Assembly (NCBI GenBank): GCA_943736015.1
Contig: OX031071.1
Span: 34,628,619-34,692,618, forward strand
Source of the DNA: Tridacna crocea
Lineage: Eukaryota > Mollusca > Bivalvia > Cardiida > Cardiidae
Reading direction: 5' to 3'
Length of the DNA stretch: 64,000 nt
The position numbers and the translations under genes were made by a program. The notes beneath the pieces were generated by a model. That model saw only the letters and a list, made by a program, of their open reading frames with translations, did no database searches and had not been told where the DNA came from. Shown in pieces: positions 19,758 through 44,263 of the stretch; position 1 is the stretch's first letter; each line of letters opens with the position of its first letter.

Positions 19758-19986
19758 TTAACTCTTTACCACACGAGAAAATTTTAGACTGGTCCAAATT
19801 GAAAGCATTTGCAGACGACAAAATAAAGGTGACTGAAAAATTGAAATTTGTTCTGGGAAGGAGAGAAAACACTGTGGGAAAAGGAGAAAATGCTGGTTAC
19901 CAGCATTTTCTCCTTTTCCCACAGTGTTTTCAAAAGGCTTCTTTCTCAGGGGCGTCAAAAGTAGGGATTGTGTGGTAATGGGTTGA
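19758..19986 (-). mobile_element. TTAA hairpin MITE, near-intact copy
   Basis: TTAActctttaccacacgag to tggtaatggGTTGA, centre GGTTACC. Both arms carry the same change (acactgtggg / cccacagtgt) relative to the common aacattgtggg form. Confidence 0.9.
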
Positions 19987-20235
19987 TATCAATATTTAGT
20001 ACAAGAAATGTCAATGGTATTATGGGTTTTATCACAATTAATATTTAGTACAAGAAATGTCACCGGTATTGTTTCATTTTCACAGGCGGTAATTTAAGAA
20101 TTTAACTACACCATGTACAGTAAAACATTTCGATCTTTGTAAAAATGAGTGGAAGCTGACAGTTTGACTAAATTATCGTAAATCAAAAGTGCACCAGACC
20201 TTTTTTGTAAATTATTTTGCAAAGTCAGACCTAAT

Positions 20236-20785
20236 TTAAAGGAGGCCCTTCAGATTTTGGGACAAAAAATTTACAAAAATACTAAAAAAAAAATCTTAAA
20301 TTTCCCTAAGCCTTATATTTTTCATTCATAAAACCCCAGTAGTCGAAAACCATCCAACAACAAGAGAAATTAGAGATTTACTACAGGCCAGGTCGACGCC
20401 GAAGGGAAACACCGTTTATTTTTGCATGAGAAACTTGCTCATTTACACACTGGAAATACACAGACAAAGCTTCAAACATAGCGTCCGAAGAAGACATTAT
20501 GGAAAATAATTACATGTTTGTTATTTTATGAAATTTAAGTGTCATTAGTCACAAGTGCAAGTCACTTTACATTCCCACAATGCTTGTTTTGATTTTGGCG
20601 CGAAATCTGAAAATAGCTTAAAGGGCTACGTAGCCTTTAAAGGGAATACCACCCCCAAAAAATATTTTTGTAATATTATGACTCTTAAATATTGATTATT
20701 TGTATTTTTTTTTTCATATAAATTTCAGTGATATATATATTTTTTGCTTTGGTGTGATGTGAAAAACCTAAATACCCACCTTTAA
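20236..20785 (+). mobile_element. 545-bp TTAA MITE (type B), copy 2
   Basis: TTAAaggaggcccttcag to aatacccaccttTAAgg, bounded by TTAA. Contains ggctacgtagcc and the E-box-like and 'cattcccacaatgc' blocks shared by all copies. Confidence 0.85.
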
Positions 20786-21009
20786 GGTCATATATCTATG
20801 GTTATTCACCGAGTCTCCTTATTGTAAAGTGTTTGTAGAATGATAAAATAATCTTGTCAGAGAGACATTGTTGACTTTGACTATCTGTTACTTTATCTAT
20901 AGCCTGCACAGTCCGAGCAGGCTGACTTGAGCAAACGCTTTTCGCCATTGTACGATGGATCCCGCTGATGTATTAAGCCCTCTTTTCACAGAGCATGGCT
21001 TATAAAATT

Positions 21010-22330
21010 ATATTTTGGAAATCAAAAGGAAGCAATGTCTTCTTTTATAAAAAAAAACCCGGCCCAGCCATTACTATTCTTGAAATACACTTAATTATTG
21101 CTATCGGTAATACAGACAGGATCATAGAAGGTTTTTAGGGCAAGTTTTATCATCGACGTTCATAAGATAGACTTGTTTATCTTATTCAGTTGGTTCAAAC
21201 TTCACTTGTAGACCGCGTGATATCTCTATCACTAAACGTGGACACTTGAACACCCCTGCTTATCACCATAACAAGTAATAACTGATCAATAGTTCAATAA
21301 TTAGGACACTAAGTACAGTTAAACGTGTATTTCGTTTATCGAAGTTTTCAACAATTTTTCACTTTAATTAGAGCATCTACGGAATAAACGTTTTTATCTT
21401 TCAATACACCAATGGCATTCTAAACCAGGATAAACATCTCTCAGATGTTAACTGTTTGCTCTAGTTTAACCTTAAAAATATGCAATTATTACGGATATAA
21501 GGAAAAAAAATCACAACTCTTTTTAAGAGTCAATGTAAATTGTGTAAACTGTAATCTCGAGAGAAAAACAGAAACAACTTGTTTATCATTTGAACTGCAA
21601 ACATGAAAAGGCGTAGAAATATGCCAGAATATGGCTGTTCAAAGTTTTGACCGCAAAATCTATATATCCATTTAAAAAAGGTATGAAGGCATATTTTAAC
21701 CCACGGAGGTACAGTAGACACGTGATATTTTGAATAGAGCAGTTGTAACAATATGATTTATTACACTTATTTGAAAAGAAACAAAAACGGCTGAAAAAAA
21801 GCCTCCTACTGGACTTAACGAAATTTTGGGTACTGCCGCGTTTAGTTTCCTTTTCACAAATAGCATAGCATTTTCCCACTGAAATACAAGCAATTGACTT
21901 TGGTCTTGATATGGGCCTAAGATATAAATAAAAATACATGTACATATATATTTAGAATACTGGAGTATATGGACATTCTTTGCTTCTGTAAAACTCTCAA
22001 TTTTTCACCCGTAATTTTCACACTTGCGGGATTGTTTCTTGTTTTCTTTTGCCTATCATCAAATTATAATGTTATAACGACATCACTCAAGGGTCGATAT
22101 AAACCTATGATTCCTGTAGTTCATATCCAATTTAAATGTCGGGAAAATTTACTGTTATGATATATGAGCCGTGCTGGCATTTTACAGATCCAACAGTCTA
22201 GTGGCCTAGGTGTAAACCAGGTATAAACCGCTATAACTTAACCAAAGCATCTTTAACCGTTTACCAAAAAATAAGACGTTAGTAACTCTTTGCCAGGCAA
22301 AAGTGCTGTAGATTTGTATATACATGTATG
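21010..22330. other. No gene seen
   Basis: AT-rich sequence with no long open frame of plausible composition, no splice-consistent exon and no repeat shared with the rest of the window that I can see. Confidence 0.5.
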
Positions 22331-22374
22331 GAAAACACTTGTAAATGACAGATCAAATGCAGCTCAAGTCTTTG

Positions 22375-22495
22375 AGGAATAGAAAACATTATGGGAAAAG
22401 GAGAAAACGCTGGTTATTATTAACCCTTTACCACACAATCCCTGGTTATCACTACCCTGGACAAGAGAGCTTTTTCAAACATTTTGGGAAAATTA
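22375..22495. mobile_element. TTAA hairpin MITE fragments (two)
   Basis: A half core (gaaaacattatgggaaaagg) stops at gctggttatt and is followed by a new terminus ttaaccctttaccacacaat with its arm. Confidence 0.6.
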
Positions 22496-22499
22496 ACAT

Positions 22500-23364
22500 A
22501 GATGAAGCTTCAAACATAGCATCCGATGAAGAGATCATGGAAAGTAATTACATGTTTCTTATGTTATAGAATTTAAGCGTGATTAGTCACGTGCCAGTCG
22601 CACAACATTCCCACAATGTTTTTTTTTTACTTTTTGCGCGAAATCTAAATATAGCTTAAAGGTAGGTATTTACAATTTTTATATCACACCAAATTAAAAG
22701 ACATATATATCACTGAAATTTATATGAAAAAACAATACAAATTATCAAAAATTAAGAATCATAAAATTACAAAAAAAATTGTTTTGATGGTATTCCCTTA
22801 AAAGGCTACGTAGCCACTTACGCTATTTTTAGATTTCGAGCCAAAAATCAATGAATCATTGTGGGAATGTCAAGTGATTGGCACGTGACTAATAACGCTT
22901 AAATTCCATTACATAACAAACACGTAATAATTATTTTCCATAATGTCTTCTCCGGACGGATGTTTGAAACTTCGTCTGTGTTTTTCTGTATTTAAATGAG
23001 AGAATTGATAAAAATAGAATGTGTCTCCCGTTGGTGTCAACCTGGTCCGTAATAAATCTCTAATTTTTCGTGTTATCGGATAGTTTTCGACTTCTGGGGT
23101 TTTATGAACGCAAATTTAAAGGCTTTGGGAGTATAGGGATGGTTTTTTGTGCATTATTGTAAAATTTTCGTCCCAAAATCTGAAGGGCCACCTTTAAGAG
23201 GCTATATAGCCTTTTAAGGGAATACCGTAAAAACACAAAATAATCTCATTATTCTTAATCATTGATGACTTGTATTGTTTTCTTTTTCATATAAATCTCT
23301 GTGATAGATTTTCTTTTTGTTTTAAATTTGGTGAGATGTGAAAAACCTGAATACCCACCTTTAA
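22500..23364 (+). mobile_element. 545-bp TTAA MITE (type B), host copy split by a second copy
   Basis: The left part (22,500-22,655) and right part (23,198-23,364, ending aatacccacctTTAA) are the two sides of one copy. The split is at agcTTAA|gagg, where intact copies read agcttaagaggctacg. Confidence 0.75.
22656..23197 (-). mobile_element. 545-bp TTAA MITE (type B), copy nested in another
   Basis: A full-length copy from TTAAaggtaggtattta to agggccaccTTTAA, in opposite orientation to its host copy. Confidence 0.85.
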
Positions 23365-23369
23365 GATAT

Positions 23370-23590
23370 CTACCAAACGAATACATTTTAGACCCATTCT
23401 TAATCAAAGTGTTTACAGACGACAATCGAAATTTTCAAACGGGCTAATGTGATGAAAACTGACACTCAAAGAGTAGAAAACATTGTTAGAAGTGGAGAAT
23501 GAGTAAAAGTAACTTATCAAATCAATTTTTTCAAAAGCTGCTGTTTACGTGGTCATCAAAATACGAGATTCTGTGGTTAGGAGAATTTAC
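23370..23590 (-). mobile_element. TTAA hairpin MITE, strongly diverged
   Basis: Recognisable arm segments (acattttagacccattc; gtcatcaaaatacgag) surround a decayed core. Confidence 0.5.
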
Positions 23591-23593
23591 CCG

Positions 23594-23824
23594 TTAACCC
23601 TTTCCCAAACGAAAATCTTTGGACTAGACCAAATTGAAAGCATTTGCATATGACAATTCAACTCTTGCTGAAAAGATGATTTCTGTCTATGATAGGGTAG
23701 AAAACATTGTGGGAAAAGGAGAAAATGCTTGTTACTAGCATTTTCTCCTTTTCCCACAATGTTTTTCAAAAGGCTACTATTCCAGACCCGTACAAAACCA
23801 GGAATTGTTTGGGAAAGGGTTTAA
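23594..23824 (-). mobile_element. TTAA hairpin MITE, near-intact copy
   Basis: TTAAccctttcccaaacga to gggaaaggGTTTAA. The centre reads cttgttactag, a symmetric change in both arms from the usual ctggttaccag. Confidence 0.9.
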
Positions 23825-23954
23825 CTTACTGCACTCTGTCTCACCTACTCTTTATCTAGACAACAACCGTCCTTGATAGGTTGCACCAAAGAAGTCCTCG
23901 CATACTTATTTACAAATAGCAAAACCTTTGACCAATGTCAGGTTGCTCGTACTG

Positions 23955-24365
23955 CGCCGAGTGACATAAAGCGATAGTTTTTACAGAGGTATAACTAAAA
24001 AGTAAATTTAAACCGTGCTTTTGTGATTTCCTTATCACGCAGCGGCAACATTCAAGACAATGTTGAAATCAAAGCGTTGAAAACGTTGATGTGGCATTTG
24101 TCAAGGAAGCGGCTGTATGAAATTAATAATTTGAAAGCAAGAGGGCCATTATGGCCCTTGGATTGCTCTTCTCTGTCAATAGGCGACGAAGTGACATGGT
24201 TCAATAGTTTTTACAGAGGTATTAAACCCCCTTTTTACAGAACACGACTCATTTAGTTAGCTTTAAAGTTTAAGTAAAAAGTAACCTTAAATTGTGCTTC
24301 TGTGATTTCCTAATTACCCAGCGGCAACAGCCGAGACAATATTGAAAAAAGTAGCAGGCGAAATA
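23955..24365 (+). repeat. Imperfect direct duplication around a pearl 5' end fragment
   Basis: The block atagtttttacagaggtat ... gtgatttcc ... cagcggcaac occurs at about 23,975-24,065 and again at 24,205-24,345. Between them, at 24,140-24,178, is agggccattatggccct then ggattgctctt, a P1-type 5' end. Confidence 0.6.
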
Positions 24366-24539
24366 GTGACTGCGCCTTGAATGGTGGGGGTATGGTTTTA
24401 AAATTGTAAATGTAGCAAACATTGTGTAAAGTGGAGGAACATGTTTGTTTTAAGCATTAATTTCTCCATTGCCAGTAGTGTTCTAAATCATATTTCGTGA
24501 AAAGAAAAAAGAAATGGGATCAGTTGGTAATTTCGTCCG

Positions 24540-25290
24540 TTCGTCTGTCTGTCAGTTCGTCCAATCCCATCTTGCCCATTCCCATTTCGCCAGAATTCTT
24601 CCCGTTTCGCCCATTCTTTTTTCGCCCTTTCCAACTTCGCCCTTTTCCCATTCCGCCAAATATCTGTCCTGCCCATTATCTCCTGCTAGATGGCAATCTA
24701 TAAATCAAATCTTCGAAGAATATGAGGTGCGCAGACAACGCTGTCCTGCCCTTTTCCCGTTTTGCTCAATTTCATTTTCGCCCACTTTTCATTTCGCCCA
24801 GAAGCCATCTCGCCCAACTTTCCCATTTCGCCCAAAGACCATTTCGCTCTTTTCCCACAAGGCCCCTTCCCATTTCGAGCAAACGCCATTTTTCTGATAT
24901 CTGGGCCCATAACTAGTGAAAAGTTCTCTAATAAGTTAATTCCTCAATTGATCGTAATGATTATACGCCTGTGGTAAAGAAAGAGTTTGTAGGCTACAAC
25001 ACGTAAGGGTCAAAACGGTGATGGGGCGAGCTGATAACTGGGCAAAATGGCATTAGGCGAAGTGGTGAAAGGGCGAAATGATTAAGGGGCGAGATGGGAT
25101 TGGGCGAATCGGCAAAGTTTAATTGGCAAAAGGGCGAAACGGTAATTGGGCGAGGTGGCAATGGGGCAAATTGAAAAAGGGCAAAATGGGTAGGGGACAA
25201 GGCGGCAAATGGGCGAAATGGGAAGAAAACTTTGGCGAAAAGGGAATGGGCGAAATGGAATTGGGCGAACTTGGAAGACACCGTCTGTCA
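24540..25290. mobile_element. Foldback element made of degenerate cccatttcgcc repeats
   Basis: The left arm (24,550-24,885) is a C/T-rich string of variants of cccatttcgccc at roughly 10-20-base spacing. The right arm (25,010-25,290) is the G/A-rich complement (gggcgaaatgggcaa). The outer ends match as inverted repeats, starting gtctgtcagttcg and ending gaagacaccgtctgtcag. The spacer is about 120 bases. Open frames here come from low complexity. Confidence 0.7.
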
Positions 25291-25419
25291 GTCTACCTGG
25301 CTGATTCCAAGAATTAAGTAGAGAGTCAAGTAATGTTTTTATCGTTGCAACCTATATAACGTTGATGAGACTTGTCACATGTATTGTTTGTAGCATTCAG
25401 AAAATAAAGTATTTGATTT

Positions 25420-25580
25420 ATTCACAAATTGAATGCATTTGCAGACAGCAAACTAATGTTTAACTCTTATGGAGGAGTTTCGGATATCAGATAAAAGAAA
25501 ACATTGTTGGAGATGGAAAAATGCTGGTTACCACTTTTTTATGTCCTCACAATATTTTAAAAAGGTTTTGCTTTCAAACA
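25420..25580 (-). mobile_element. TTAA hairpin MITE, diverged fragment
   Basis: Arm aaattgaatgcatttgcaga and a decayed core (aaaacattgttggagatgg ... ctggttacca). Confidence 0.55.
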
Positions 25581-25717
25581 TCTTTCAGTCTTTTTCTTTT
25601 GTGGCAAAACCTTTAGAATTTTACTGAAAGCAACCCCCCCCCTCCAGTAGACGCAGCCAAGTCGTTGGTATCTCTTTGTCGTCACATCACAGTATTGTTT
25701 GCGTTATACTTAATGGT

Positions 25718-25862
25718 TTAACCCTTTAATCCATAAATACTCATTTCTACGCATTGCTTGTAGGAACCTTTGGAAAACATTGTGGTAAAAGGTGAAATTG
25801 CTCGTGACGAGTAATTTACCTTTTGTCACAATGTTTCGTACACTATCTAAAGGTGTCACATA
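25718..25862 (+). mobile_element. TTAA hairpin MITE, subfamily 2, truncated
   Basis: Shares the TTAAcccttt terminus and the outer core aaaacattgtgg but has the alternative palindrome centre attgctcgtgacgagtaat. Compare with the full copy at 60,959. Confidence 0.7.
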
Positions 25863-26016
25863 AGAAATGGCTTCATCCTTGCTGTTATTTATGGTCAATT
25901 AGAGATACCATAGAAATGCCTTGTGGGGTAAATGGTCAATCAGCTGGCTTTATGAATGATCGTAAAAACATGTTAATTATTGCAACTTTAAGACTAGTTC
26001 TATCAATAGTTTTGTC

Positions 26017-26562
26017 TTAAAGGTGGCCCTTCAGATTTTGGGACGAAAATGTTATAAAAATGCAAAAAAAATCATCCTTATACTTCCAAAGGCTTTTACT
26101 TTTCATTCATAAAACCCCAGCAGTCGAAAACCATCCGACAACACGAGAAATTAGAGATTTACTTCGGCCCAGGTTGACACCAACGGGAGACACGTTCTAT
26201 TTTTAGATTATCAATTCGCTCATTTACATACAGGAATACACAGACGAAGTTTCAAACATAGCATCCGAAGAAGACATTATGGAAAATAATCATTACATGT
26301 TTGTTATGTAATGTAATTTAAGAGCTATGAGTCACGTGCCAGTCACTTGACATTCCCACAATGCTTTATTAATTTTGGCGCGAAATCTAAAAATAGCTTA
26401 AGAGGCTACGTAGCCTTTTAAGGGAACACCATCAATTTTTTTTTTTATAATTTTATGAATCCTAATTAATGATGATTTGAATTAATTTTTCTTATGAATT
26501 GGAGTGATATATACATTTTTTTGATTTGGTGAGATGTAAAAATTCTAAATACCCACTTTTAA
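26017..26562 (+). mobile_element. 545-bp TTAA MITE (type B), copy 4
   Basis: TTAAaggtggcccttcag to taaatacccactttTAA, with the ggctacgtagcc palindrome. Confidence 0.85.
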
Positions 26563-26681
26563 ACAGAAAATGGATTGTTGATGATAAAGATTAAACATCC
26601 GACAGAAGGATAGGACAAATACGTCTGTTATCAGTGATAAAACATTGACGTCATGAACAAAGGTCCAGTGTTCTTATCGTT

Positions 26682-26903
26682 TAACTCCTTACCATAAAAC
26701 TAAAAGTTCTATTTGCCCAGTATTTGCAGAAGACAAAAAAGATATATTTATGACTTAATTAGAATTTGTGGTTTGAAGGATTAAAAAACACTGGGGGCAA
26801 AGAAGAAAAATACAGATACCTGAATTTTCTCCTCTTCTCACAGTGTTTACAAAGGTCTCGACTTTTTGGGTGGTAAAAAATCGGGGTTGTGTGGTAAAAT
26901 ACA
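26682..26903 (-). mobile_element. TTAA hairpin MITE, old diverged copy
   Basis: The terminus TTAActccttaccataaaac, a core acactgggggcaaag ... ttctcacagtgttt, and gttgtgtggtaaaa at the other end. Confidence 0.6.
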
Positions 26904-27067
26904 TAGCGTTCATCTTACGAATTTATAAAGAAATTGCCTTTTTTCCTCCACACAAGTATCTTTTTTTTTTTCTCATTTTATGTATTTTCAGCACTTTGAC
27001 AAAAAATGTGTAACAGTCATTCTATAAAAGACCATACGACAATACTTTGATTTGTCGCCTTGTAAGG

Positions 27068-28119
27068 TTTTTAGCTCCACGGACCGAAGACAAGCGACCT
27101 CAAACATGGCTCTGTGTCCGTCGTGCGTCAGTCCGTCCTTGCATCAATTTTTTTTTCTAAAACATCTTCTTCTCTGAAACTGCGTACCCAATATTTACAA
27201 GACTTCGCAGAAATGAACCTGCCATGGCTATCTTAAGGACTTTGCTTTTCAGAAGAATTGGTTTCCTTTGTAAGGGACTGTAAAATATTGAAACTCTTTG
27301 AAATTCGTATTGTTCGGAAGCAAGAGACTTAGAGCTACCAATTTATGCTTGCTGCTTCATTTAATAAAACCCTACTACTTTCTTTTTAAATTATAGGCCC
27401 AGGGTCAAATTTAGTCCCGTCCCGGGGGTCACAAATTTTACATAGACTCATGTTGCGAAAACTTTAAAACTCTTCTGGTTGTTAACCAATGGCTATGGTC
27501 TGTCGACCACATTTAGCATGTAGCTTTATCTAATAGACCTCTAGAAAAATTATCAAAACTTGAGCCCTAGGGCAGAAATTGGCCCTGCCCCGGGCTCAAA
27601 AGTTTTACATGGACTTATATAGATATGATAATAAATAAAAAACAAACTTCAAATTATAAACCGTATGGCCCAGAGCTATCAAATTTAACATGTAGCTCAA
27701 TGAACCTCTACAAAAATTGTTCAGTCTGTAGCCCTGGGGTAAAAAATGGCCTTGTATGGGGATTGCAAGTAGCACATGGGATTTTATAGTGAAAACTCCT
27801 TGATCTTTACTGTAATCCCAAGGGTTATCAAATTTGGTAGTTATAGGTTCGTCTAGTGAATCACTTCAGATAATCTTTTCTCCTTTTTCCACAATGTTTT
27901 CTACCCTGCTGGAAACAAATTTCAATTTTTGATTTGCCTTCATTTTGTCGTCTACAAGTCCTTTCAATTTGGACCAGTCTAAAAGTTTGTTTTTTGGAAA
28001 AGACAGAAAATGTAAAAATCTTGTTCGAAACCATTTGGTGTATACTTGTAGTATTTGGTGTCTGTAATTTGTACATATTCGCAAGTTTAGTCATACAGGG
28101 CCTTTTTGGTCCTCTTGTT
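27068..28119 (-). mobile_element. Pearl/Helentron-like element, family P4, minus strand
   Basis: The left edge ttttagctccacggaccg is the reverse complement of a P4 3' end, with gtccgtcgtgcgtcagtcc just inside. The right edge is acagggcctttttggtcc then tcttgtt, the 5' end in reverse. Internal units of about 150 bases carry 'ccctgccccgggctcaaa'-like blocks. A MITE fragment sits at 27,868-28,005. Confidence 0.6.
27868..28005 (+). mobile_element. TTAA hairpin MITE, right half
   Basis: Starts within the core (ataatcttttctccttttt) and continues through gtcgtctacaagtcctttc to ttttttggaaaagac. Confidence 0.7.
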
Positions 28120-28139
28120 ATGGTTTGGCATAGTTAGAT

Positions 28140-28600
28140 GAGAAATATGATGGAAAAATAAAAAGATGTTACTTATTATCTAATTAACTATCAAATATTT
28201 TATAGATCTACACGATGTTTTTTGACAATCACAAATACAAAGACGGACGCTATGTCCTTGTAATTGTGAGGATCACACAGTGTAGATGGAGGAAAACTGT
28301 TGTTGAAGTGAAATTCCCCCTACATCATAATCCTTCACAAAGTTAAAGGTTGAATTTTCTCTCATTCTGTCGTATGAAAAGTCCGGGTCGATCAGATCAT
28401 CAAAGATAGATATATATGTCAAAGATTTCGGTGAAAATTGTACATGTCGGAAGGTAGGGACACTACTCAGTAATAATATTCTATCTATTTGTTACAATGT
28501 TACAATGTTTTGGTTTTTACTAATTCTTATATCCGCAAGAAAGGAAGGTAATAGTCGAAATAGCATGGTGTAATAGGACGAAACCCACGCATGGCACTTG
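28140..28600. other. No gene seen
   Basis: AT-rich sequence without a recognisable repeat or exon. Confidence 0.45.
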
Positions 28601-28680
28601 TGGGAGATCACGTGATAATTTTATCCACTATGATTGGACAGAGATAAAGATCCATTGGGTCATACTGTGGACAGCTTTAT

Positions 28681-28858
28681 AACTGTATGTTAGCAGCAGC
28701 GGATAATAGATTTCTCTCCGCCGCCGATCTCTGCTTTAACCACCCAGGAAGAATTATATTAACATACAGACGAGGCCAGCAGATTCTCGCTATTAGTACA
28801 TCTAGATCCACTCGCATTGAATACTTTCCAAGGACTGTGACAACACACACTCTAGGAG
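28681..28858 (+). other. Possible non-coding first exon of the TRIM-like gene
   Basis: The segment is less AT-rich than its surroundings and ends in a strong donor (AGGAG|gtgagc). Just upstream are a cacgtg E-box within atcacgtgat (about 28,610) and a reversed CCAAT box (gattgg, about 28,630). Its own reading frame would not join the downstream ATG in frame, so it would be a 5' UTR. The link to the gene 5 kb downstream is inference. Confidence 0.25.
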
Positions 28859-28869
28859 GTGAGCAATTG

Positions 28870-29450
28870 CCCTTTTTTATCTGATTTATAACGTTGATAG
28901 ATTGAGTTTTAAGTCATTTTTCCGTTTAAGCCCATTCGACAATATATTTTATGTTTTAAGGGGCACAAATCTAGATACGCATGTACTAATCGTGCTCTGT
29001 ATTCCTTATGTAAATCAAAACATAACTTTCAGGATTATTTGTGGATGACTTTTAGCATACAGGAAAACAGTGCAGCAAGAGTGCATTTCTACCCTTTTTT
29101 GGCCAAAAATTACATTTGGGTTACATTTTGTAAGTAGACGAGGCTAAATAAATTTATTACATACCTAGTAGTGAAATACTGGAATTTCCCAGTGTAACAA
29201 ATTTTGATATCATCACCAGTGACGGTATCAACTTTCACTTTCACTTCCTATTGTAATTTAGGGACTACTTTCTTTTTCATTAAGCACTTATAGATAGTAT
29301 TAATTGTAAGTTTTGTAAAGTTTCGTTTTGTTCTTTTAAATTATGTATTCATCCGCACTGTGTCCTTGATTTCTTCTCTCTATCCAAAGTATTGATTTTG
29401 ACTTTCAAACGAAAAATTAAAAATAATAATGTTAATAAGATATATAATAA
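28870..29450. other. No gene seen
   Basis: AT-rich sequence. Nothing recognised on either strand. Confidence 0.45.
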
Positions 29451-29457
29451 ATAGAAT

Positions 29458-29608
29458 TATCAACTGGTTATTTTTTATATGAAAAACATCTCACTCGGAT
29501 ACGTCGTAAGGCGTTAAAAAAAACTTGTGCTCCGCACTCGTTTTTTCAACGCCTAATAACGCATCCTCGTGATATATTTTTCATATCAAAAATAACCAGT
29601 TGATTATC
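29458..29608. repeat. Imperfect inverted repeat (foldback)
   Basis: The outer arms tcaactggttatttttta and aaaataaccagttga, with inner matching atatgaaaaac / tttttcatat, enclose a centre that is also partly palindromic (aaggcgttaaa ... ttcaacgcct). Confidence 0.75.
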
Positions 29609-29694
29609 CTCTATGTCTTTTTGTAAAGTCTAGTAGCTAAGTATTTCGTGAAAACAATTAGCCGTAAAAGCCTGTTGTAGATCTTTACTGTGCG

Positions 29695-29912
29695 TGCTCT
29701 GTGAAAAGGGGCTCAATGCGATTAGCCTTTGCAGACTGAAGTGGACGGAAACTTTACACTATCTTTAAGATTTCTGCATTTCAAAGGATGATTCTACCTC
29801 ATGATTCATTGGGTTGTTTGACAAAAAAGATTATATGTATCTATGTTTAGGTGATGTCTTGTTTGGTATAACACATCACAGAGATGTATTAAGCCCCCTT
29901 TTGTCGGAGCAT
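29695..29912 (+). mobile_element. MITE of the 'ggggcttaatgcat' type, copy 3
   Basis: Ends are gctctgtgaaaaggggctc and aagcccccttttgtcgg then agcatggc, complementary to each other. Confidence 0.65.
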
Positions 29913-29920
29913 GGCTCATA

Positions 29921-30148
29921 TTAATTCTTTACCACACAATGACGACTTTTGACGACCCTGACGCAGAAGCCTTTTGAATACATTTTAGGAAAAGGAGAAA
30001 ATGCTGGTAACCAGCATTTTCTCCTTTTCCCGCAATGTTTTCTACCCATTGCCAATAAAATTTCAATTTTTGATTCACATTTAGTTTGTCGGCTGCAAAT
30101 GCTTTCAGTTTGGACTAGTCCAAATTTTGTGGTTTTGGAAAAAGTTAA
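29921..30148 (+). mobile_element. TTAA hairpin MITE, near-intact copy
   Basis: TTAAttctttaccacacaat to ggttttggaaaaaGTTAA, centre GGTAACC. Confidence 0.88.
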
Positions 30149-33996: not shown

Positions 33997-34026
33997 CAAA
34001 TGATCTTTATCTATCGCAGACACACA

Positions 34027-35487
34027 ATGGCCGAGAACATTCTATATGACAGTTTGGAGAGTGAGGAAGAACAGTCGTACAGCTTGTCGGATATCACGGA
34101 CGTAGACACGGAAACATCGGAAAAATTGAATGAAAAATTTCAAGAATTGAGCGTGAAAGAGAGTGGAAGAAAAGGAGCGAAGTGCGAGAGTTGTGTGCGG
34201 GAGGAGTGTCCGGAGTCTGAGGGTGATATGTGGTATGAGAGAGCGAGAGAGCTGTATGGGAGGGTGGCTGTTTTTTTCTGTTTTCTTTGTAAGATGTTTG
34301 TTTGTGCGGAATGCTTGCCCAAACATCAGTGGCATGATGGACAGAAAGTGGGGAGAGAAGAGGGTGAGGGAATGGAAGAACAGAGAGAAAGAGAGAGAAA
34401 TAAGGGAAAGGGATTGGATAAGGAAACTAAGAGAATGCGACTACAAACAGAGAGCGAGAGAAAGAAGGAGAACGAGGGAAATGAGAGTGACAGAATGAGG
34501 GAAAAGAGAGAGAGAGAAAGAAAGCGAAGGGTGTATATTGAAAAGCTTTTTCAAAGTGAGAATGAAACAGAGAAAACAGAAAAATTGTTCACCAGCCACG
34601 CCGTTATTTGTGATCGCGTTCACGTAAAACACGAATTGGATCAGGACGAGGATTGTGTGATAACTGGATTGTGTGGACTGGAGAACAAAAGGTTGGTAGT
34701 CTGTGATTGTTGGAATTCTTGTATTAAAATATTTAAACTGGGAAGTCACGTGCTACAACGTTATATACGGTTTGTAGGGTCTGAGTCTGAACCTCGGGAT
34801 GTTACAGAAATAGATTTAAAACAGAATTATACTGAACCGAACTTAATGTCCGGCAGTAGTTCTTATATTTCTGTAACAGACCGGGCGGATCCGGATAAAC
34901 AATGTTTGATAGCAGTAACGTTACCAGGGAAACGTCAAATAATGTTTATAGATTTAAGCAAAAAACCCGCTAAAGCACAAAAAACAATAAAAACAGAGAA
35001 AGAATGTTATTATATACAGTTTTATGATGACAAGATTTTTGCCCTCTGTAGTGAAGATCCTGACTCTCGCTGTTCTGTTTATATTTACTCTACAGACGGA
35101 GACACGCTAAACAAGTTTGACATTGGTATCGAGCGTTACACTGATCTCGCCGTTGTTTCTGGACGAGTCTATATAACGGATAGGTACAATAACAAAGTAC
35201 AATGTAGAAATGTTGAGGGTAAACTTATCTCAGAAATAACAATTGAAGGGTTGGGGCCTGCAGGAATCAGTGTAGACCCAGATAACAACGTTTATGTATG
35301 TGCACTGTGGCACAACAAAGTTTATAAACTGGATGCTGATCTGACTCGATACAAGTCGGTGTTAGATCAGACTACAGATTATATAGAGAGTCCCTTGGCT
35401 CTGTGTTATTACGGAGACAAATTATTTATCAGCCATGCCGGGCCACAATCTTTACGTAAATTTGTTACTGTGGTCCGACTGCTGTAA
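34027..35487 (+). CDS. B-box / NHL-type beta-propeller protein (TRIM-like, no RING)
   Basis: One coding exon of 486 residues. A strong acceptor (gatctttatctatcgcag) ends at 34,019 and the ATG at 34,027 has a good context (acacaATGG), so I prefer it to an in-frame extension back to 33,928, which would cross the splice site and a MITE. Residues 1-50 are acidic and Ser-rich. Residues 53-103 show paired metal ligands: CESC at 53-56, CFLC at 85-88, CAEC at 93-96, and His 100 and His 103. This is a B-box-like zinc finger, though the first loop is long. Residues 107-168 are almost only Arg, Lys and Glu. Residues about 195-486 hold repeating blade motifs (RVYITDRYNNKV, GISVDPDNNVYVCALWHNKV), as in NHL propellers of TRIM2/3/71-type proteins. 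With no RING it may act as an adaptor rather than a ligase; bivalves have many such TRIM-like genes. The exact role is unknown. Confidence 0.85.
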   Translation: MAENILYDSLESEEEQSYSLSDITDVDTETSEKLNEKFQELSVKESGRKGAKCESCVREECPESEGDMWYERARELYGRVAVFFCFLCKMFVCAECLPKHQWHDGQKVGREEGEGMEEQRERERNKGKGLDKETKRMRLQTESERKKENEGNESDRMREKRERERKRRVYIEKLFQSENETEKTEKLFTSHAVICDRVHVKHELDQDEDCVITGLCGLENKRLVVCDCWNSCIKIFKLGSHVLQRYIRFVGSESEPRDVTEIDLKQNYTEPNLMSGSSSYISVTDRADPDKQCLIAVTLPGKRQIMFIDLSKKPAKAQKTIKTEKECYYIQFYDDKIFALCSEDPDSRCSVYIYSTDGDTLNKFDIGIERYTDLAVVSGRVYITDRYNNKVQCRNVEGKLISEITIEGLGPAGISVDPDNNVYVCALWHNKVYKLDADLTRYKSVLDQTTDYIESPLALCYYGDKLFISHAGPQSLRKFVTVVRLL

Positions 35488-35830
35488 CGACACCTCGACC
35501 TGGACATTGTATATCATTGTGGACTTTAGTCATCGGACATTTAAATCTGCACCACAATGTATTCTTTTGTTACCATGGTTACCATGTTACCCCCTTTTCA
35601 ACCCATACGTGACTTTGAAGGTTTTTTTTTTTCGCGGAGATTGTAGACAAAGATCAGTCTGCACATACGTGCAGCCTGATCTTTGCCACATTCCCCGCTT
35701 TTGTATAAATAAGTTTAATAAACAATTGCCATTTCCTGCCGATAAATTTCACGAAATCTATTTTTGTGATAATTTATTTTAACGGACATTCGGCGGGACG
35801 TGGAATAAATAAGTTTTTTCTCAACATTTC
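35488..35830 (+). promoter_or_regulatory. 3' UTR and polyadenylation signals of the TRIM-like gene
   Basis: AATAAA occurs at 35,717-35,722 and again at 35,804-35,809. The segment contains the hairpin at 35,638-35,697. Confidence 0.5.
35638..35697. repeat. Hairpin of the dispersed family in the 3' UTR
   Basis: ttgtagacaaagatcagtct then gcacatacgtgcagcctg then atctttgccaca pairs over about 22 bases with a small loop. Confidence 0.7.
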
Positions 35831-35834
35831 GTTG

Positions 35835-37100
35835 TAGATCTACTTTGTTTAGTATGCTAGCTGTCGTTGGAAATCTTGTCATCATTTATTTATTTGGCTT
35901 TTTTTATTTATTTTTGATCAAGTAATTTATTCTTATTGCCAATTATAATCGAACTTGCCCCACCCACTCCCTCCGAATCATTTGCTATGAATTCACGAAT
36001 TTAACTTTAACACCCCCCCCCCTCCCGTTTGAAAAATTTCACAATTCTCGATAATCTGTGAACATTAATTGACTTCTAAACGTGATTCTATCAAACATTG
36101 TTTATCCGGAAAAAACAATGTGGCAGCAGTGTTTTATCTATATGCATCATTATCGCCGTTCTGAATGTTTTCTCTCCACAAAAACTGCTGTCAAATCACA
36201 GACTACCTTTCTTCTTATCTAGTCCCCATAATTCACATGTGGTTGTGTTTTTTATCGATAATTACGGGTTTGCATTTGTTCATTTTCCGGTCCAATTCGT
36301 GTTTTACAAGAGAGAGAGGGAGAGAGAGATGATTGGAATTTTACGAATGTTTTTTTTTTCATATTTATTACCTGTAGTCTTGATCGCTATTTTTGATTTA
36401 AAAAAAAATACGTACATTCTTTGTGTACATTTTTGCTGCGTAATTGTATATATCATGTATTTATTCAATAAGAGACTACGTATTACATTAGGAAAATAAC
36501 AAAAAATGTATGTCTTGTGCTTTTGTCACCTATTTCAATACTGACATGTAGTTCAATGACAAACCATACTTTGATGTTTAATTTTGTCATAATAATCTCA
36601 ATAGCTTCCTTTTAAAATACTAAATACGTTTTCAAGTCAACAATTTGTCCAACATTCTCTTCTTATCTTTCTGATTTAATGTACTTCGTAATTTCAAACA
36701 TACTCTATTTAATAAATTTTGAATAAATGTCGAATATTTGTATTTATGTAAACTCGTTGTTTTGTTATAATTTCTGCACAAAAATATCATTGAAAGCTTC
36801 CAGTTATATACATGTATTACCCAAAGGCCTTATCACAGGTAACTGACAATAAAAACACATCTTTGATGATTTGTGGATTAGAACCTCAACTCCGGCTGTC
36901 TACCTATGCATTGTTTTGGTTTTTGGTGTTTTGATACCGTTTTCAACAATATTTCAGTTATGTCGTAGCAACCAGTACAACTATCCAGGCTTTGCAGAAG
37001 TTTCTTACATCAGTGTTTCACATTCTTTTTGCAAGCCACTGGCTGCTCAGTGCTTTCCTTACATAGACATTATAAAAGACAACTGAATCCTGTCCCACTG
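35835..37100. other. No gene seen
   Basis: AT-rich. A 133-codon open frame at 36,098-36,499 has the hydrophobic, Phe/Ile-rich make-up expected from T-rich DNA, and I do not treat it as a gene. Confidence 0.5.
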
Positions 37101-37375
37101 GCTATTATTAATTCTTGAGGACAAATTTGGTCGAGCCGAGACCCCAACTGGCGACCCTTTGATAACAAACTGTGTACTTTGACCGAGGTACCGCGCTTGA
37201 CACACAGCGTTGTTAATGCAGGAGTTGTAAGTTCAAATTCCTGGACTAGACATATCCTGCATTTTACACATGGACCTCGACTTAAAACCTCCAGACTGGA
37301 TACATTGATCTACCATGTAAAAACCTAAATTTTGCTAATTTCAAAGATACTTCGAGGAAAAAATATTTCTTTATC

Positions 37376-37440
37376 AGACAATGTAGATCAAAGATCAGAC
37401 TGCACGTCCTGTTCAGCCTAATCTTGATGTACACTGTCCG
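37376..37440. repeat. Dispersed hairpin family member
   Basis: cagacaatgtagatcaaaga ... gactgcacgt ... cctaatcttgatgtacac then tgtccg. Confidence 0.75.
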
Positions 37441-37699
37441 AAAGTTTTTTTAGTCGCTCTTACCAGTCTGAGATTGAATGGATGGATAGACCAATGATTG
37501 GATGGATAAATGAAGTAACTGTGTTGTAATCATCAGTCTAAATATAACTTCTGTTGCAAGTAAGCCTTATCCTGTTGGAATAAAATAACGTTACAGTGGG
37601 TGTAGATCGAGATGATACATGAAGTCTAATCAGTTCTTATAGACATAAAAACATTGGATACGAGCATATACAGGACACGCCTGCACACAAAAAAAACAG

Positions 37700-37855
37700 A
37701 AGCATTGTGGAATAGGAAGTAATGTTGAAAAGCATTTTTTTTCTCTTGCCCACGATAGTTATCAGACTTTTCAAAGACCAATACCAGGCTTCAAGCCACA
37801 CTTGATTTGTTATTTGCAAATGTTTCAATGCGGACCAGTCTAATATTTTGTTGAT
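37700..37855 (+). mobile_element. TTAA hairpin MITE, diverged fragment
   Basis: aagcattgtggaataggaag and the right arm (gttatttgcaaatgtttcaa ... ccagtctaatattttgttg). Confidence 0.5.
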
Positions 37856-37859
37856 TGAA

Positions 37860-38060
37860 TGGTGTTTAACACCACTTTCAACATTATTTCAGTCCTATCA
37901 TGATTACAGCTTACATATTCAATGTATGTCAAGAAATTCACTAGAACAAGGTAAGGGCTCTAGAAGTGTATTGCCCAAGAACAGTCCCGCGAAGCTGGAA
38001 CCCGAGACCTCCAGGTAATGACCCCTACATGTTACGAGCTCTACACCTTAATACTTCAAT
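37860..38060 (-). mobile_element. tRNA-headed SINE
   Basis: Read on the minus strand, 38,045-37,985 has a box B-like tctcgggttccagct after a tRNA-like segment (gagctcgtaacatgtagggg). The body ends with the segment that on the + strand reads caacattatttcagtc. That segment recurs near 36,943, 54,305 and 55,690. Confidence 0.5.
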
Positions 38061-38209
38061 CCATGCAGGACCCTAAAATTTTGTTTCATGGCTAGGAGTT
38101 GTTTGGTCGCTGAAAGACCATTAGACCCCTTTTCTCCAAAACCCTATATGGCCTTCAACACTTGAAAAGGCGCATTTGAACACTTGCTTTACGTGTCGTC
38201 TCCAATCAG

Positions 38210-38510
38210 CATGTGCAGTCCGCGCAGGCTAATCCAAGACAGCACTTAACAACTACATAAGACTTCGTGCTACATTAGACTTGTGCAAAACAGAAAATAC
38301 CATCATGAAAAACAGAAAGTGTTGTTTGGGGTGAACCTGTGCAGACGGCGCAGGCTAATCCGAGACAGCACTTACATGTAACAACTACATGAGACTTTGT
38401 GCTACATTAGACTTGTGCAAAACAGACAATCATAAAAATGGAAAGTGTTGTTTCGGGTGAACCTGTGCGGACTGCGCAGGCTGATCCGAGACAACATTTT
38501 ACTCAAATGT
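38210..38510 (+). repeat. About 125-bp tandem repeat, 2.4 units
   Basis: gcaggctaatccgagacagc ... ctacattagacttgtgcaaa ... gtgttgtttggggtgaacct repeats at about 38,225, 38,350 and 38,475. Confidence 0.8.
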
Positions 38511-38814
38511 CCGACAGTCCCTTTTTGCATATTGCATGCCATATTGTGTTAAACTGCGACATAAATCCGTCGATGATGCGCAGCCATGAGTAAATAACTC
38601 AGTAACTATTGAGATTTAAAGATTAATTTTGTGGAGAAATTCAGTCATGATATCAGACAGTGTAAATCAAGATCAGACTGTACAGACTATGAAGTCTAAT
38701 CTTAAATCTACTCTGCCCAAATAAGTACATTTAAGTGAACTCATGAGCTGCAGAGCTGATTATAGTCCTGGTTTAAAGAACTAGACAAGTGGAAGAACTG
38801 TTATATACGAGCCA

Positions 38815-39015
38815 TACTTTTTTCAATAGGGAGCTTAATGGATCTTTGAAAAGTATCGACACAAATCAGTCTGAACAGTCCATGCAGGCTGACCTTGCTC
38901 GAAGCTTTGTGCTATTAGTCAATGTCAGTCCGAGCAGTCCATGCAGGCTGACCTTGCTTGATACTTTTTGCTATTAGTCAATAGTCTGTATGTCAGAGGA
39001 CAAGTCTTCTTCATG
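38815..39015 (+). repeat. Duplicated ggctgaccttgct element
   Basis: The block cagtccatgcaggctgacct then tgct ... tgctattagtcaat occurs twice in tandem (about 38,878 and 38,937). It is related to the inner part of the MITE at 19,490. Confidence 0.65.
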
Positions 39016-39900
39016 ATTCAATCAGTTGTTTACACTTCACTAAAAAGTTCGACCTTCACAGGAAACTTTGACTTTTTCATGGGACTGTCCTTTGACAAGG
39101 CACCTAAAAGCCCCAGTCAAGCAATGTTGATTGCCAGAAACGTGACTTAGTAACATGCAGTGGTATGACCGAAATAATGTTTAAAGTGACCTAAATCAAC
39201 AAACAATAAATCCGTCTAGGTCCTTTGTGATACAGTGGTTGGTGTTGGTCCTGTAACCAACATGTCTTGGGTTCCATTACTTCTAGTAAAGCAAATTAAG
39301 CAATGATGTCCTTGGACAAGTTACTACAGAGTCCCTGCCTATCATCTGCAAATCTTTTCAAATCAATATTCAGCCATCTGTCTGTTTGATGTCACTGAAG
39401 TATAAGATAAAAAGAAATCATAATTATACCAACAACATAGGCAAACTAAAATACTTTATATTTCACACTTCTAAATTCCAAAATATTTTCTGTATGAGCC
39501 TCACTTTGACTATTATATGGACTTAGATAACATCCAAAAGCAGCCAATGATTTTCACATAATACACATGACTATGTGTAACAGTTACTGTGACACAACTG
39601 AGATAATCTTGAGATTGATTCCAGCCCAAGGCGTTTTGACGTATGAGTGTCCCTGGGCAATACACTGCAAAGCATCAGCCTAGTACTTGAGAGACCCAGG
39701 AAAGAGAATCATAGATAAGTGGCCTTTAATAAATTTGTTGTACAGTCAGGTGGCAGGGGACTTTGAAACTTGTTTACAGCTGTGGTAAATCATGTCGCCC
39801 CGAGCGGAAGGCTGCTTTCCCACATAACCATTATCTTAATAACTATCTGTAGTGAGAGAGAATCCTGTTGCAACTACTAAAATCAATCTTCAAAAAGAAA

Positions 39901-39978
39901 ATGGCCCAGCTGGGGATTTGAACAAGTAACCCAATGGTCTCAAGCCATGTATGTCACTAAGCCACGTGGCTCAGCCAT
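39901..39978 (-). mobile_element. tRNA-like head of a SINE
   Basis: On the minus strand: acgtggcttagtgacata (box A-like) and acttgttcaaatcccc (box B). The SINE body probably extends left to about 39,600. No anticodon arm good enough for a functional tRNA is seen. Confidence 0.5.
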
Positions 39979-40013
39979 AGTTTGAAATGATCGCGTTTTG
40001 CAAATAACTGGCA

Positions 40014-40242
40014 TTAATTCTTTACCAAATGACAACATGTTAGACTGGTCCAAATTGAAAGCATTTGCAGAACACAAAATAAAAGTGACTAAAAGTTTGA
40101 AATTTGTTTCCAGCAGGGTAGGAAACATCGTGGGAAAAGGAGAAAATGCTGGTTACCAGCATTTTCTCCTTTTCCCATATTTTTTTCAAAAGGCTTCTTT
40201 CTCAGGGTTGTTAAAAGTCGGGATTGTGAGGTAAAGAGTTAA
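40014..40242 (-). mobile_element. TTAA hairpin MITE, near-intact copy
   Basis: TTAAttctttaccaaatgac to gaggtaaagaGTTAA, centre GGTTACC. One core arm is damaged (cccatatttttttc). Confidence 0.9.
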
Positions 40243-40517
40243 ACAGCAAGCTCAAAAGCACATCAATATTTCCAAACACTGGCTGTCATGTACTACCTGA
40301 ATTGGTGTTTAAAATACCAAAATGACAAACAATTCTTCAGGTTTATGATTGATTGAATTTTATTTATCCTCACCACCGGTTTTTCATAGGAACAACGCCC
40401 CATGAAAGCTGTTAGTATCATTACGGGGGATAGTGCAGATACAGGACGAAATTTGGACCGGCTAAAAAGTTTGTTGTTTGGTAAGCACAAAAACCCCTCA
40501 TCAAACAATCCCAAATT

Positions 40518-40750
40518 TTAACTCCTTACCACACAATCCCGACTTTTAACGACCCTAAGAAAGAAAGAGCCTGCTGAAAACATTGAGGGAAAAGGAGAAA
40601 ATGCTGGTAACCAGCATTTTCTCCTTTTCCAACAATGTTTACTTTTCTTCCCAAAACAAATTTTAAATTTTCAGTCACTTTTATTTTGTCAAGTGCAAAT
40701 GCTTTCGACTTGGGCAAGTCTAAAATTTTGTTGTATGGTAAAAAGTTAAA
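40518..40750 (+). mobile_element. TTAA hairpin MITE, near-intact copy
   Basis: TTAActccttaccacacaat to tatggtaaaaaGTTAA, centre GGTAACC. Confidence 0.9.
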
Positions 40751-40788
40751 AACAGTCAACCGACAACGGAAAAATTTTTGAAAACTAG

Positions 40789-43700
40789 AGCTATCACTAA
40801 ACGTGATCGTACCCCCCAACAGATCCTTGTCACAAAACAGATTAATGTCACAGGAATGTAAAATAAGTGACTGGAGAGTCAATTATACCAGAGCTATCAC
40901 TGAAGGTGATGACTATCCTGCAATGGCTTCTTGCCAAAGAATTACTCTTTGTCATAGACTGAAGACTTGGAGAGAATAAAACTTACTTGATATATTTTTT
41001 TTTACCAGTTGGGACAAATTGAGACTGGTTTAAATGAAAACGTTTTGCAGACAACAAATGTCTTCAACATCTGCACCAAAGCAAACTTAGTAAAGGTGGT
41101 TTTGTTACCAATGCCCACCTATAGGAGGTAAGACACATTTGCTGAATTGATTTTAAGAATTTAGAAAAGGCAAAAATATGGTATGCAAATCATTGCAAAA
41201 AAAATTATTTGGTGTAATAGTTTTTGACATAGAAGCTGTGTTAAAAGTATTCTATCAAAAGTATAATTCATTTTCATCAATTCAGCAAGGGCACCATCAT
41301 AAAGACAACGACAAAAAAGGGCTTAGCTCTTGGAAATTTTATTTAATTAACTAAGAACAATTTATGATATGCATATCTTTGCTGAGTGCAAAGTCTATCC
41401 ATGAAGTTTGAAAGAAATTTGTCCAGAATCATCAAAGGGCCATAACTCCATGAAACCTAAATAAACCATAACCAAAATAGGATATGCACATCTCTGCTTG
41501 ATACTGAGTCTATTTGTGTAGTTTGAAGCAAATCTGTCCAATAGTTGATGAGAAAAAGAGCGGACAAGAAATTTCATGAAAGAGCCATAACTCAGTGAAC
41601 TAGAGGACCATGATGGTCCTATATCGCTCACCTGAGTACTAAGCAGTAAACGTCTACAATGAAGATAAATACCAAATATCAAAGTTCAAGGTCAAATAAT
41701 TCTGACAGGGTACGTAACTGGGCAAAATGCATCTTCTACATTTAGAGAAGAAGATTTTTAAAGTTTTCCGTCTTTGTTCCTATGTTTCAAACTTGTGACC
41801 CCCGGGACAGGGCCAGTTTTGACTCCAGGGGCATCATATGAACATTCTTGGTAGAGGTCCACTAGGAGATGCTGCATACAAAATATCAAAGCTCTGCATC
41901 TTCTAGTTTCAGAGAAGATGATTTTTAAAGTTTTCCTTCTTTGTTCCTATGTTTCAAACTTGTGACCCCCGGGACGGGGCCAGTTTTGACCCAAGAGGCA
42001 TCATATGAACAATCTTGGTAGAGGTCCACTAGGGTATGCTATATACCAAATATCAAAGCTCTGTACATTCTAGTTTCAGAGAAGAAGATTTTTAAAGTTT
42101 TCCTTCTTTGTTCCAGTTTCAAACTTGTGACCCCGGGGGCTGGACCAGTTTTTGACCCCAGGGGCATCATATGAAAAGTCTTGGTAGAGGTCCACTAGGA
42201 GATGCTACATATAAAATATCAAAGCTCTGCATCTCCTAGTTGCAGAGAAGAAAATTTTTAAAGTTTTCCTTCTTTCTTCCTATGTTTCAAACTTGTGACC
42301 CCCGGGGCGGGGCCAGTTTTGACCCCAGAATATTAAGAATCTTGGTAGAGGTCCACTAGGAGATGCTATCTACCAAATATCAAAGCTCTGCATCTTCTAG
42401 TTTCAGAGAAGAAGACTTTTAAAGTTTTCCTTCTTTGTTCCTATGTTTCAAACTTGTGACCCCCGGTGCGGGGCCAGTTTTGACCCCAGGAGCATCATAT
42501 GAACAATCTTGGTAGAGGTCTACTTGGAGATGCTACATACAAAATATCAAAGCTCTGCACCTTCTAGTTTCAGAGAAGAAGATTTTTAAAGTTTTCCTTC
42601 TTTGTTCCTATGTTTCAAAATTGTGACCCATGGGATGGGACCAGTTTTGACCCCAGGAGCATCATATGAAAAAACTTGGTAGAGATCCACTAGGAGATGC
42701 TACATACCAAATATCGAAGCTCTGCAACTTCTAGTTTCAGAGAAGAAGAATTTTGGAGTTTTCCTTCTTTGTTCCTATGTTTCAAACTTGTGACCCCCAG
42801 AGCTGGGCCAGTTTTGACCCCAGGGGCATTATATGAACAATCTTGGTAGAGGTCCACTAGGAGATGCTACATACCAAATATCACAGCTCTACGCCTTCTA
42901 GTCTCAAAGAAGAAGATTTTTAAAGATTTTGTTGTTGTTTTCCTTTTGGTTGCCATGGCAACCAGAGTTATGGCTGGAATTCAATCTCTTGAACAACTTT
43001 GGTAGAGCCTCACCCAAGGAACATCTCTGCCAAGTTTCATCAAGATCGGCCCTGTGGTTTAGGAGGAGAAGATGTTTAAAGAAATTGTGGATGACGGACG
43101 ACGGACATTGGGCGATCACAAAAGCTCACCATGAGCACTTTGTGCTCAGGTGAGCTAAAAATCAATGAACCATAACCAACATTTCATATGAACATCTCTG
43201 CTTGATATTGAGTCTACCTGTGAAGTTTGAATAAAATTTGTCCAATAGTTTATGAGAAATAGAGCAGACAAAAGGCTACAGACCGACCAAGGGACGGACA
43301 GCTGAGTTAAAATTATTCTATCAAATGTATAATTTATTTTCATCAATTCAGCAAGGGCACCGTCATAAAGAAAACAACAAAAAAGGGCTTAGCTCTTGGA
43401 AATTTTATCTAATTAACTAAGAACAATTATGATATGCACATCTTTGCTGAGTGCAAAGTCTATCCATGAAGTTTGAAAGAAATTTGTCCAGAATCACCAA
43501 AGGGCCATAACTCCATGAAACCTAAATAAACCATAACCAAAATAGGATATGCACATCTCTGCTTGATACTGAGTCTATTTGTGTAGTTTGAAGCAAATCT
43601 GTCCAATAGTTGATGAGAAAAAGAGCGGACAAGAAATTTCATGAAAGAGCCATAACTCAGTGAAAAATCAATGAACCATAACCAACATTTCATATGCACA

Positions 43701-43880
43701 TCTCTGCTTGATACTGAGTTTACCTGTGAAGTTTGAATAAAATTCATCCAGTAGTTTATGAGAAATAGAGCGGAAAAAAAGCTACAGACTGACCGACGGA
43801 TGGACAGACGGACGGACCGACCAACCGACAGACAAGCTGACTCCTATATACCCCCCAAACAGAGTTTTGGGGGGTATATT
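40789..43880 (+). mobile_element. Pearl/Helentron-like element, family P2, with a nested P1 copy
   Basis: The 5' end is ctagagctatcactaaacgt then gatcgtacccccc. The body has two long related units starting tcagcaagggcaccatcata at 41,282 and tcagcaagggcaccgtcata at 43,344. The 3' end has gacggacggaccgacc and the hairpin tataccccccaaaca ... ttttggggggtata at 43,849-43,878. The P1 element at 41,601-43,158 lies inside the first unit. Confidence 0.7.
41601..43158 (+). mobile_element. Pearl/Helentron-like element, family P1, copy 2, nested
   Basis: 5' tagaggaccatgatggtcct then atatcgctcacctgag; about eight units of roughly 165 bases; the gttgccatggcaacc palindrome; gacggacgacggac; 3' hairpin gagcactttgtgctc then aggtgagctaaaa. 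Units are close relatives of those at 15.6-17.6 kb. Confidence 0.8.
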
Positions 43881-43888
43881 AATGAGGG

Positions 43889-44029
43889 AAATGGAGAAAA
43901 TACTAGTAACCACAATGCTTTCTACCCTATCAAAGGCAGAAATTGTCATTTTAGCGATACCTAATTTGTTGTCTGCAAATGTTTTTAATTTGGTTCAATC
44001 AAAAATTTTGTCGTTTGGTAAAATGTTGA
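43889..44029 (+). mobile_element. TTAA hairpin MITE, internally deleted
   Basis: A partial core (atggagaaaatactagtaac then cacaatgctttctaccc) and a full right arm to gtttggtaaaatgTTGA. Confidence 0.7.
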
Positions 44030-44034
44030 ATACA

Positions 44035-44263
44035 TTTACCCATTACCACACAATCCCTACTTTAGACGCCCCTGAGAAAGAAGCCTTTTGAAAACACGGT
44101 AGGAAAAGGAGAAAATGCTGGTAACCAGCATTTTCTCCTTTTCCTATAGTGTTTTCTACCCCTCCCAGATCAAATTTAAATTTTTTAGTCACCTTTATTT
44201 TGTCGTCTGCAAATGCTTTCAATTTGAACCGATCTAAAATTTTGTCGTGTGGTAAAGAGTTAA
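44035..44263 (+). mobile_element. TTAA hairpin MITE, near-intact copy
   Basis: TTTAcccattaccacacaat to gtggtaaagaGTTAA. The core arms carry matched changes: aacacggtaggaaaagg on one side and ccttttcctatagtgtt on the other. Confidence 0.88.

Follow-up and report, generated by a model that had tools for sequence, protein, structure and literature searches.

Mirror changes in the palindromic core of a TTAA-flanked MITE from Tridacna crocea distinguish subfamilies, and inserted copies decay nearly one arm at a time

The window analyzed here (the whole 64-kb stretch of Tridacna crocea contig OX031071.1) contains many copies of a TTAA-flanked miniature inverted-repeat transposable element (MITE) with a 67-nt palindromic core. 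After insertion, the two arms of this core decay nearly independently. Between subfamilies defined by the flanks of the element, average divergence is much lower in the core than in the flanks, and the shared changes are mostly mirror changes, with complementary substitutions on both sides of a pair. Paired change thus belongs mainly to the transposing lineages. An earlier note on this DNA had proposed that the arms change together. Mirror pairing is indeed more frequent than chance predicts, but most of the excess comes from five subfamily-diagnostic pairs, and one-sided changes dominate single copies. Private changes are unfiltered and nearly independent, whereas shared changes have passed through transposition and are mostly symmetric, so that a demand for symmetry in spreading elements is the simplest account. 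We give about an even chance to the reading that dyad symmetry is held in source elements and lost one side at a time in inserted copies.

An abundant TTAA element with an internal palindrome

A profile, first built from 8 copies in the window and rebuilt from 146 full copies, describes an element of 229 columns with TTAA at both ends. The element has no coding capacity, being too short for a transposase, and is a non-coding, TTAA-flanked MITE of the piggyBac type. Target duplication of TTAA is seen at the nested copy at 53,574, the host flanks of which, once joined, form an uninterrupted element with one TTAA. Of 103 near-full copies, 53 have an exact TTAA at both ends and 70 have at most one mismatch per end. 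The consensus ends, CTCTTTACCA and CCCTTTACCA, pair at 16 of the first 19 positions. Immediately after TTAA, one end starts with CCCT and the other with CTCT, only one of which fits the terminal inverted repeat motif CC[C/T]T given in PMC2872659. The piggyBac transposase domain (PF13843) has at least 118 matches in the genome, the best of them with long open frames, and none of the 14 control genomes was positive. On contigs C10, C18, C3, C4, C5, C9, and C15, these matches form groups with identical scores and open-frame lengths; such identical groups on different contigs suggest recently active piggyBac families.

The inner 25-mer of the core occurs exactly at 231,766 sites in a pattern search of the 1.05-Gb genome (31 contigs), and the reversed control pattern at none. 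A whole-genome nucleotide search with the full core as query, of a kind that skips very common words, returned no match. The family makes up 17.6% of the window; in 190 kb sampled at fixed places on 18 contigs, its share is 13.7%, and this sample extrapolates to about 580,000 core-bearing copies in the genome. None of 271 cores lay outside matches to the full-length model. Of 361 non-overlapping model matches, 225 span the core after removal of overlaps between loci. Pair counts exclude the 30 copies retrieved by way of a perfect inner core and thus rest on 195 unselected copies, or on 185 once 10 near-identical ones (9 from the tandem arrays L009 and L011, 1 in L007) had been dropped.

The core occupies columns 108-174, off-center in the element. 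Its consensus is an exact palindrome with 33-bp arms and one center base. The palindrome, which the earlier note called loop-less and put at about 64 bases, is near-perfect in the copies, is 67 nt long, and has a center base. Folded as single-stranded DNA with DNA parameters, the core reaches -39 kcal/mol (z -13.7). Among the copies singled out in the earlier note (Table 1), those at 19,758 and 53,574 indeed both carry the mirror change T8C/A60G, common to 22 of the 195 unselected copies, and the aggaaaagg/ccttttcct pair at 44,035 corresponds to G12A/C56T, likewise a true mirror pair. The change reported as mirror at 23,594 proved to be G31T opposite C37T, that is, a T:T mismatch.

Table 1. 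Copies of the MITE in the window discussed in the text
Feature	Position	Strand	Remark
MITE copy, main type plus mirror change T8C/A60G	19758..19986	+	
67-nt palindromic core of the 19758..19986 copy	19865..19931	+	read from sequence; folded
MITE copy, mirror changes 8/60 and 12/56 plus two one-sided changes	44035..44263	-	core about 44090-44156
MITE copy with T8C/A60G, nested inside another family copy	53574..53802	+	
Host copy split by the nested 53574..53802 copy	53522..53975	-	joined flanks continuous, single TTAA
MITE copy, G31T facing C37T	23594..23822	+	non-complementary
MITE copy, core identical to main consensus	18181..18409	+	
Partial subfamily B copy (14/54, 21/47, 26/42, 31/37 type)	25718..25851	-	further private changes
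Copy with mirror changes 26/42 and 31/37	60959..61188	-	

Several other repeats lie alongside the family. A small tandem array at 57917-58161 (5.8 units of 42 bp) overlaps a MITE copy in its left part (model columns 17-68) and so appears to have arisen from the MITE. Satellite-like arrays are present at 15626-17612 and 41728-42930 (167-bp units, the same family in two places) and at 49140-50731 (161-bp units). A 527-codon open frame at 33904-35487 matches the NHL repeat (PF01436, E 1.3e-10). Palindromes are also found outside the family, accounting for 39 of the 137 with a score of at least 15 in 254 kb (loci L003, L004, L006, L008, L012, L017, and others). The subtypes of one such group, with half-sites CAGCCTGCGC / CAGACTGCAC, differ on both arms, which looks like the same both-arm behavior in an unrelated repeat.

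Mirror and one-sided changes within copies

In the 38 core-spanning copies of the window, 158 pairs are changed on one side, 17 are mirror pairs (in 10 copies), and 12 are changed on both sides without being complementary. The 195 unselected copies contain 846 one-sided and 197 both-sided pairs, 143 of the latter mirror. Shuffling right arms among similarly diverged copies gave an expectation of 70.7 mirror pairs (standard deviation 8.1), and 143 was reached in 0 of 300 shuffles; with partners slid by 1-3 positions, 14-23 mirror pairs were counted. Among 399 carriers of variants found in 15-30 copies, 200 had the complementary partner (38.2 expected), as did 18 of 468 carriers of variants found in at most 8 copies (10.4 expected). 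Thus, the mirror excess sits in common variants.

The 185 collapsed copies yielded 789 one-sided and 193 both-sided pairs, including 139 mirror pairs. Five subfamily-marking pair changes account for 90 of these 139 and have 39 one-sided carriers. The remaining 49 compare with 25.1 under independence. Doubles at non-partner positions are in excess by a factor of 1.38; scaled by this factor to allow for unequal copy age, the expectation is about 35. Against the scaled expectation of 34.6, the Poisson p is 0.012; without pairs 12/56 and 20/48, the count is 35 versus about 29 (p 0.15). Non-complementary doubles number 54 (43.2 expected). Some mirror excess in private changes possibly remains.

At two of the 33 pairs, classes of double change were counted genome-wide. 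For pair 28/40, with all other inner positions perfect, there were 8,867 one-sided transitions and 2,668 one-sided changes of the second type. Mirror A/T (247), mirror T/A (34), and both-sided non-complementary changes (128) all exceed the numbers predicted by independence (84.8, 7.7, and 51.0, respectively), as copies of unequal age should produce. An age factor common to the classes cancels in the ratio 4 x 247 x 34 / 128^2, which is 2.05 (95% interval 1.25-3.38). The corresponding counts for pair 32/36 (675, 164, and 484) give 1.89 (1.48-2.42). At these two pairs, the excess of each mirror class is thus about 1.4-fold, a figure that is an upper bound on arm copying because differences in the kinds of mutation among copies also raise the ratio.

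The likeness of arms leads to a similar estimate. In a balanced comparison, the arms of one copy were 6-11% more alike than the arms of its nearest flank relatives (n 56-157 depending on the setting), also without the diagnostic pairs, and part of this likeness is to be expected where the two compared copies differ in age. Strong ongoing homogenization of the arms was rejected on this result. A first comparison, in which own arms appeared less alike (0.140 versus 0.120, n = 167), was discarded as unbalanced: it set the own mismatch of one copy against a mean taken with its neighbor. Arm copying in inserted copies is at most weak, and the within-copy effect is not the main source of the pattern.

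These figures bear on foldback copying alone, whereby a polymerase copies one arm from the other by template switching during replication or repair, with no selection on the palindrome. The mechanism has been published for RNA stems (PMC8794818) and yeast quasi-palindromes (PMC3820800) and would fit the small mirror excess in single copies. The center base (core column 34) also seems to speak for it: T>A is present in 16 of 159 main-type copies and makes up 16 of 25 center changes compared with 428 of 1,180 changes of T in the flanks (p 0.005), an over-representation that inversion of a loop would give. However, none of the 44 unselected main-type copies whose inner arms are perfect has T>A, although the arms of such copies should exchange most readily, and 1 of the 30 copies selected for such arms has it; inversion of the core through its arms was accordingly dropped as an explanation. 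Moreover, single copies show a small effect, and it is among the shared changes that mirror changes predominate. Considering also the shared changes described below, foldback copying alone appears unlikely as the origin of the pattern.

Changes shared between subfamilies

Across 121 near-full copies, the ratio of core to flank divergence falls from 0.61 in the closest pairs to 0.39 in the most distant ones, and core pair distances are below those of the terminal repeats in 9 of 9 bins. In 10-column bins, divergence is 0.055-0.130 in the core, 0.099 and 0.110 in the outermost bins, and up to 0.313 in the flanks; the copies were gathered by similarity to the element, and these values may overstate core conservation.

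Subfamilies were defined by clustering 149 of the 185 copies by their flanks only. The main cluster contains 135, 103, or 77 copies depending on the threshold; subfamily B has 9 copies, and subfamily C, obtained at the finest of the three thresholds, has 4. The differences from the main type amount to four mirror pairs in B and three in C; neither consensus has a one-sided change, and the consensus cores of the flank clusters have all 33 pairs intact. Of 36 settings of threshold, cluster size, and majority, 32 give three to five shared mirror changes and zero to five shared one-sided changes. Private changes are mirror in 49 of 963 cases (914 one-sided), and the difference between shared and private changes has p <= 1.5e-4 in the same 32 settings, the other 4 having no shared changes; the known shared mirror changes number only five, each of which the test takes as an independent event. 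The core type with both 26/42 and 31/37 changed is present at 29,913 exact sites in the genome. Carriers of 8/60 are closer to one another in their flanks (0.278) than to the rest (0.330). A flank-derived tree, on which changes were mapped for 191 of the 225 copies with arrays and pre-selected copies still included, is of supporting use only: on internal branches, true pairs co-changed 6 times (5 complementary) against 0.3 expected, and control pairs 38 times (10 complementary) against 3.8; on terminal branches, the respective numbers were 73 (39 complementary) against 36.4 and 1,168 against 761.7.

One-sided changes are also shared in places. A7T has 13 carriers, none with the partner change, and is common to four flank-related copies. 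Two related copies, L013/6038 and W/52505, share 11A, 32A, and 56A, all without partners. The five one-sided shared changes obtained in one setting stem from A7T and a three-copy cluster that includes these two copies. Core symmetry is thus a strong tendency of lineages but no absolute rule.

Several flank-clustered candidates for one-sided subfamilies (44 T>G, 38 A>T, 60 A>T, 58 C>G, and 31 G>T) were rejected, as they trace largely to L009 (6 copies) and L011 (5 copies). In these loci, MITE copies lie inside tandem arrays (L009:718-9049 and L011:811-8377) with units of about 1.6 and 1.85 kb. The one-sided core changes shared within the arrays spread by duplication, not transposition.

Could ancestry without function produce the same picture, each large subfamily stemming from one founder that happened to be a perfect palindrome? 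Shared ancestry had been named beforehand as the finding that would undo the claim of paired change. It does cover most mirror pairs in single copies, 90 of 139 being subfamily markers, and the two arrays show how freely one-sided changes spread by duplication. It leaves unexplained, however, that the shared changes are mostly mirror: no reason is given for founders to change on both sides, and the probability that ten independently placed changes form five complementary mirror pairs is 5e-9. The flanks, moreover, diverge far more than the core between subfamilies. We therefore regard founder ancestry alone as improbable.

Four of the five shared pair changes (14/54, 21/47, 26/42, and 31/37) are flips of the pair, from A:T to T:A or from G:C to C:G. 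Flips make up 208 of 1,012 non-diagnostic core changes (20.6%; p 0.007 for the difference), which further weakens the case for foldback copying alone. They also speak a little against pairing as RNA because a flip cannot pass through G:U. Selection of the core as an RNA hairpin, for instance as a source of small RNAs, would agree with the near-perfect inverted repeat, and hairpin microRNAs derived from MITEs are reported in PMC1784062. However, the one-base center leaves almost no loop, and no Rfam family was found at its cut-off in the 64-kb window. We consider an RNA hairpin very unlikely.

A possible demand for symmetry and comparison with known systems

The earlier note had offered a choice between a selected hairpin and foldback copying. 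Copying in inserted copies is at most weak, as judged by the 6-11% and about 1.4-fold effects, and the shared mirror changes still call for either selection on symmetry or copying coupled to transposition; copying could, for example, be limited to transposition itself, a variant of the foldback mechanism that may apply here. Under the reading that we favor, elements that still transpose would have to keep the dyad symmetry of the core, either because the same factor (a homodimer of the transposase or of a host protein) reads both half-sites or because the DNA must fold. One-sided mutants would seldom start large new lineages. A lineage would shift when both arms had changed, through rare template switching from arm to arm or through a second mutation, and inserted, dead copies would be free of the demand and drift one side at a time. 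A more specific version, which we put forward tentatively as one possibility, is that the core is a long dyad-symmetric cis element and that the MITE spreads only if a homodimer (of the transposase or of a host factor) reads both half-sites, so that the core sequence would drift only by changes in both of them. If so, successive subfamilies would record the co-evolution of a binding site and its factor, and several hundred thousand dead copies would provide a neutral control within one genome.

Paired change in an inverted repeat is often taken to prove a selected structure. In a single family with both shared, transposition-filtered and private, unfiltered changes, selection, foldback copying, and ancestry can be separated by counting. 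The result also bears on how a perfect-palindrome repeat came to cover about 14% of the sampled sequence.

In titles and abstract openings of the open-access literature, a scope that leaves most subscription papers outside, we found no TTAA MITE reported to have an internal palindrome that changes in pairs between subfamilies. The PALTTAA repeats of Caenorhabditis elegans (a Repbase name) are, going by the name, palindromic with TTAA ends; they are not known for paired changes. Transposons of the piggyBac superfamily (PF13843) share the TTAA target duplication with the present MITE, which differs from them in coding for nothing and in having CC[C/T]T at one end only. Comparable elements are the CMITEs of Acropora corals, TTAA-flanked piggyBac-type MITEs with an interior more conserved between families than the terminal repeats (PMC2872659). 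By description, the two resemble each other in TTAA class, conserved interior, and occurrence in tandem arrays; the CMITEs are about 100 bp long compared with 229 bp here, the word "palindrome" is absent from the main text of PMC2872659, and the passages considered mention no paired changes. The present analysis thus bears on the conserved interiors of some TTAA MITEs, a question left unresolved for CMITEs (PMC2872659). Template switching from arm to arm has been proposed as the source of mirror changes in the stems of RNA genes (PMC8794818) and in yeast quasi-palindromes (PMC3820800). Those systems and the MITE core have in common that the two arms of an inverted repeat show mirror changes. 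Unlike in the RNA genes and yeast reporter assays of these reports, paired change here is strong between subfamilies of a mobile element and weak within its inserted copies.
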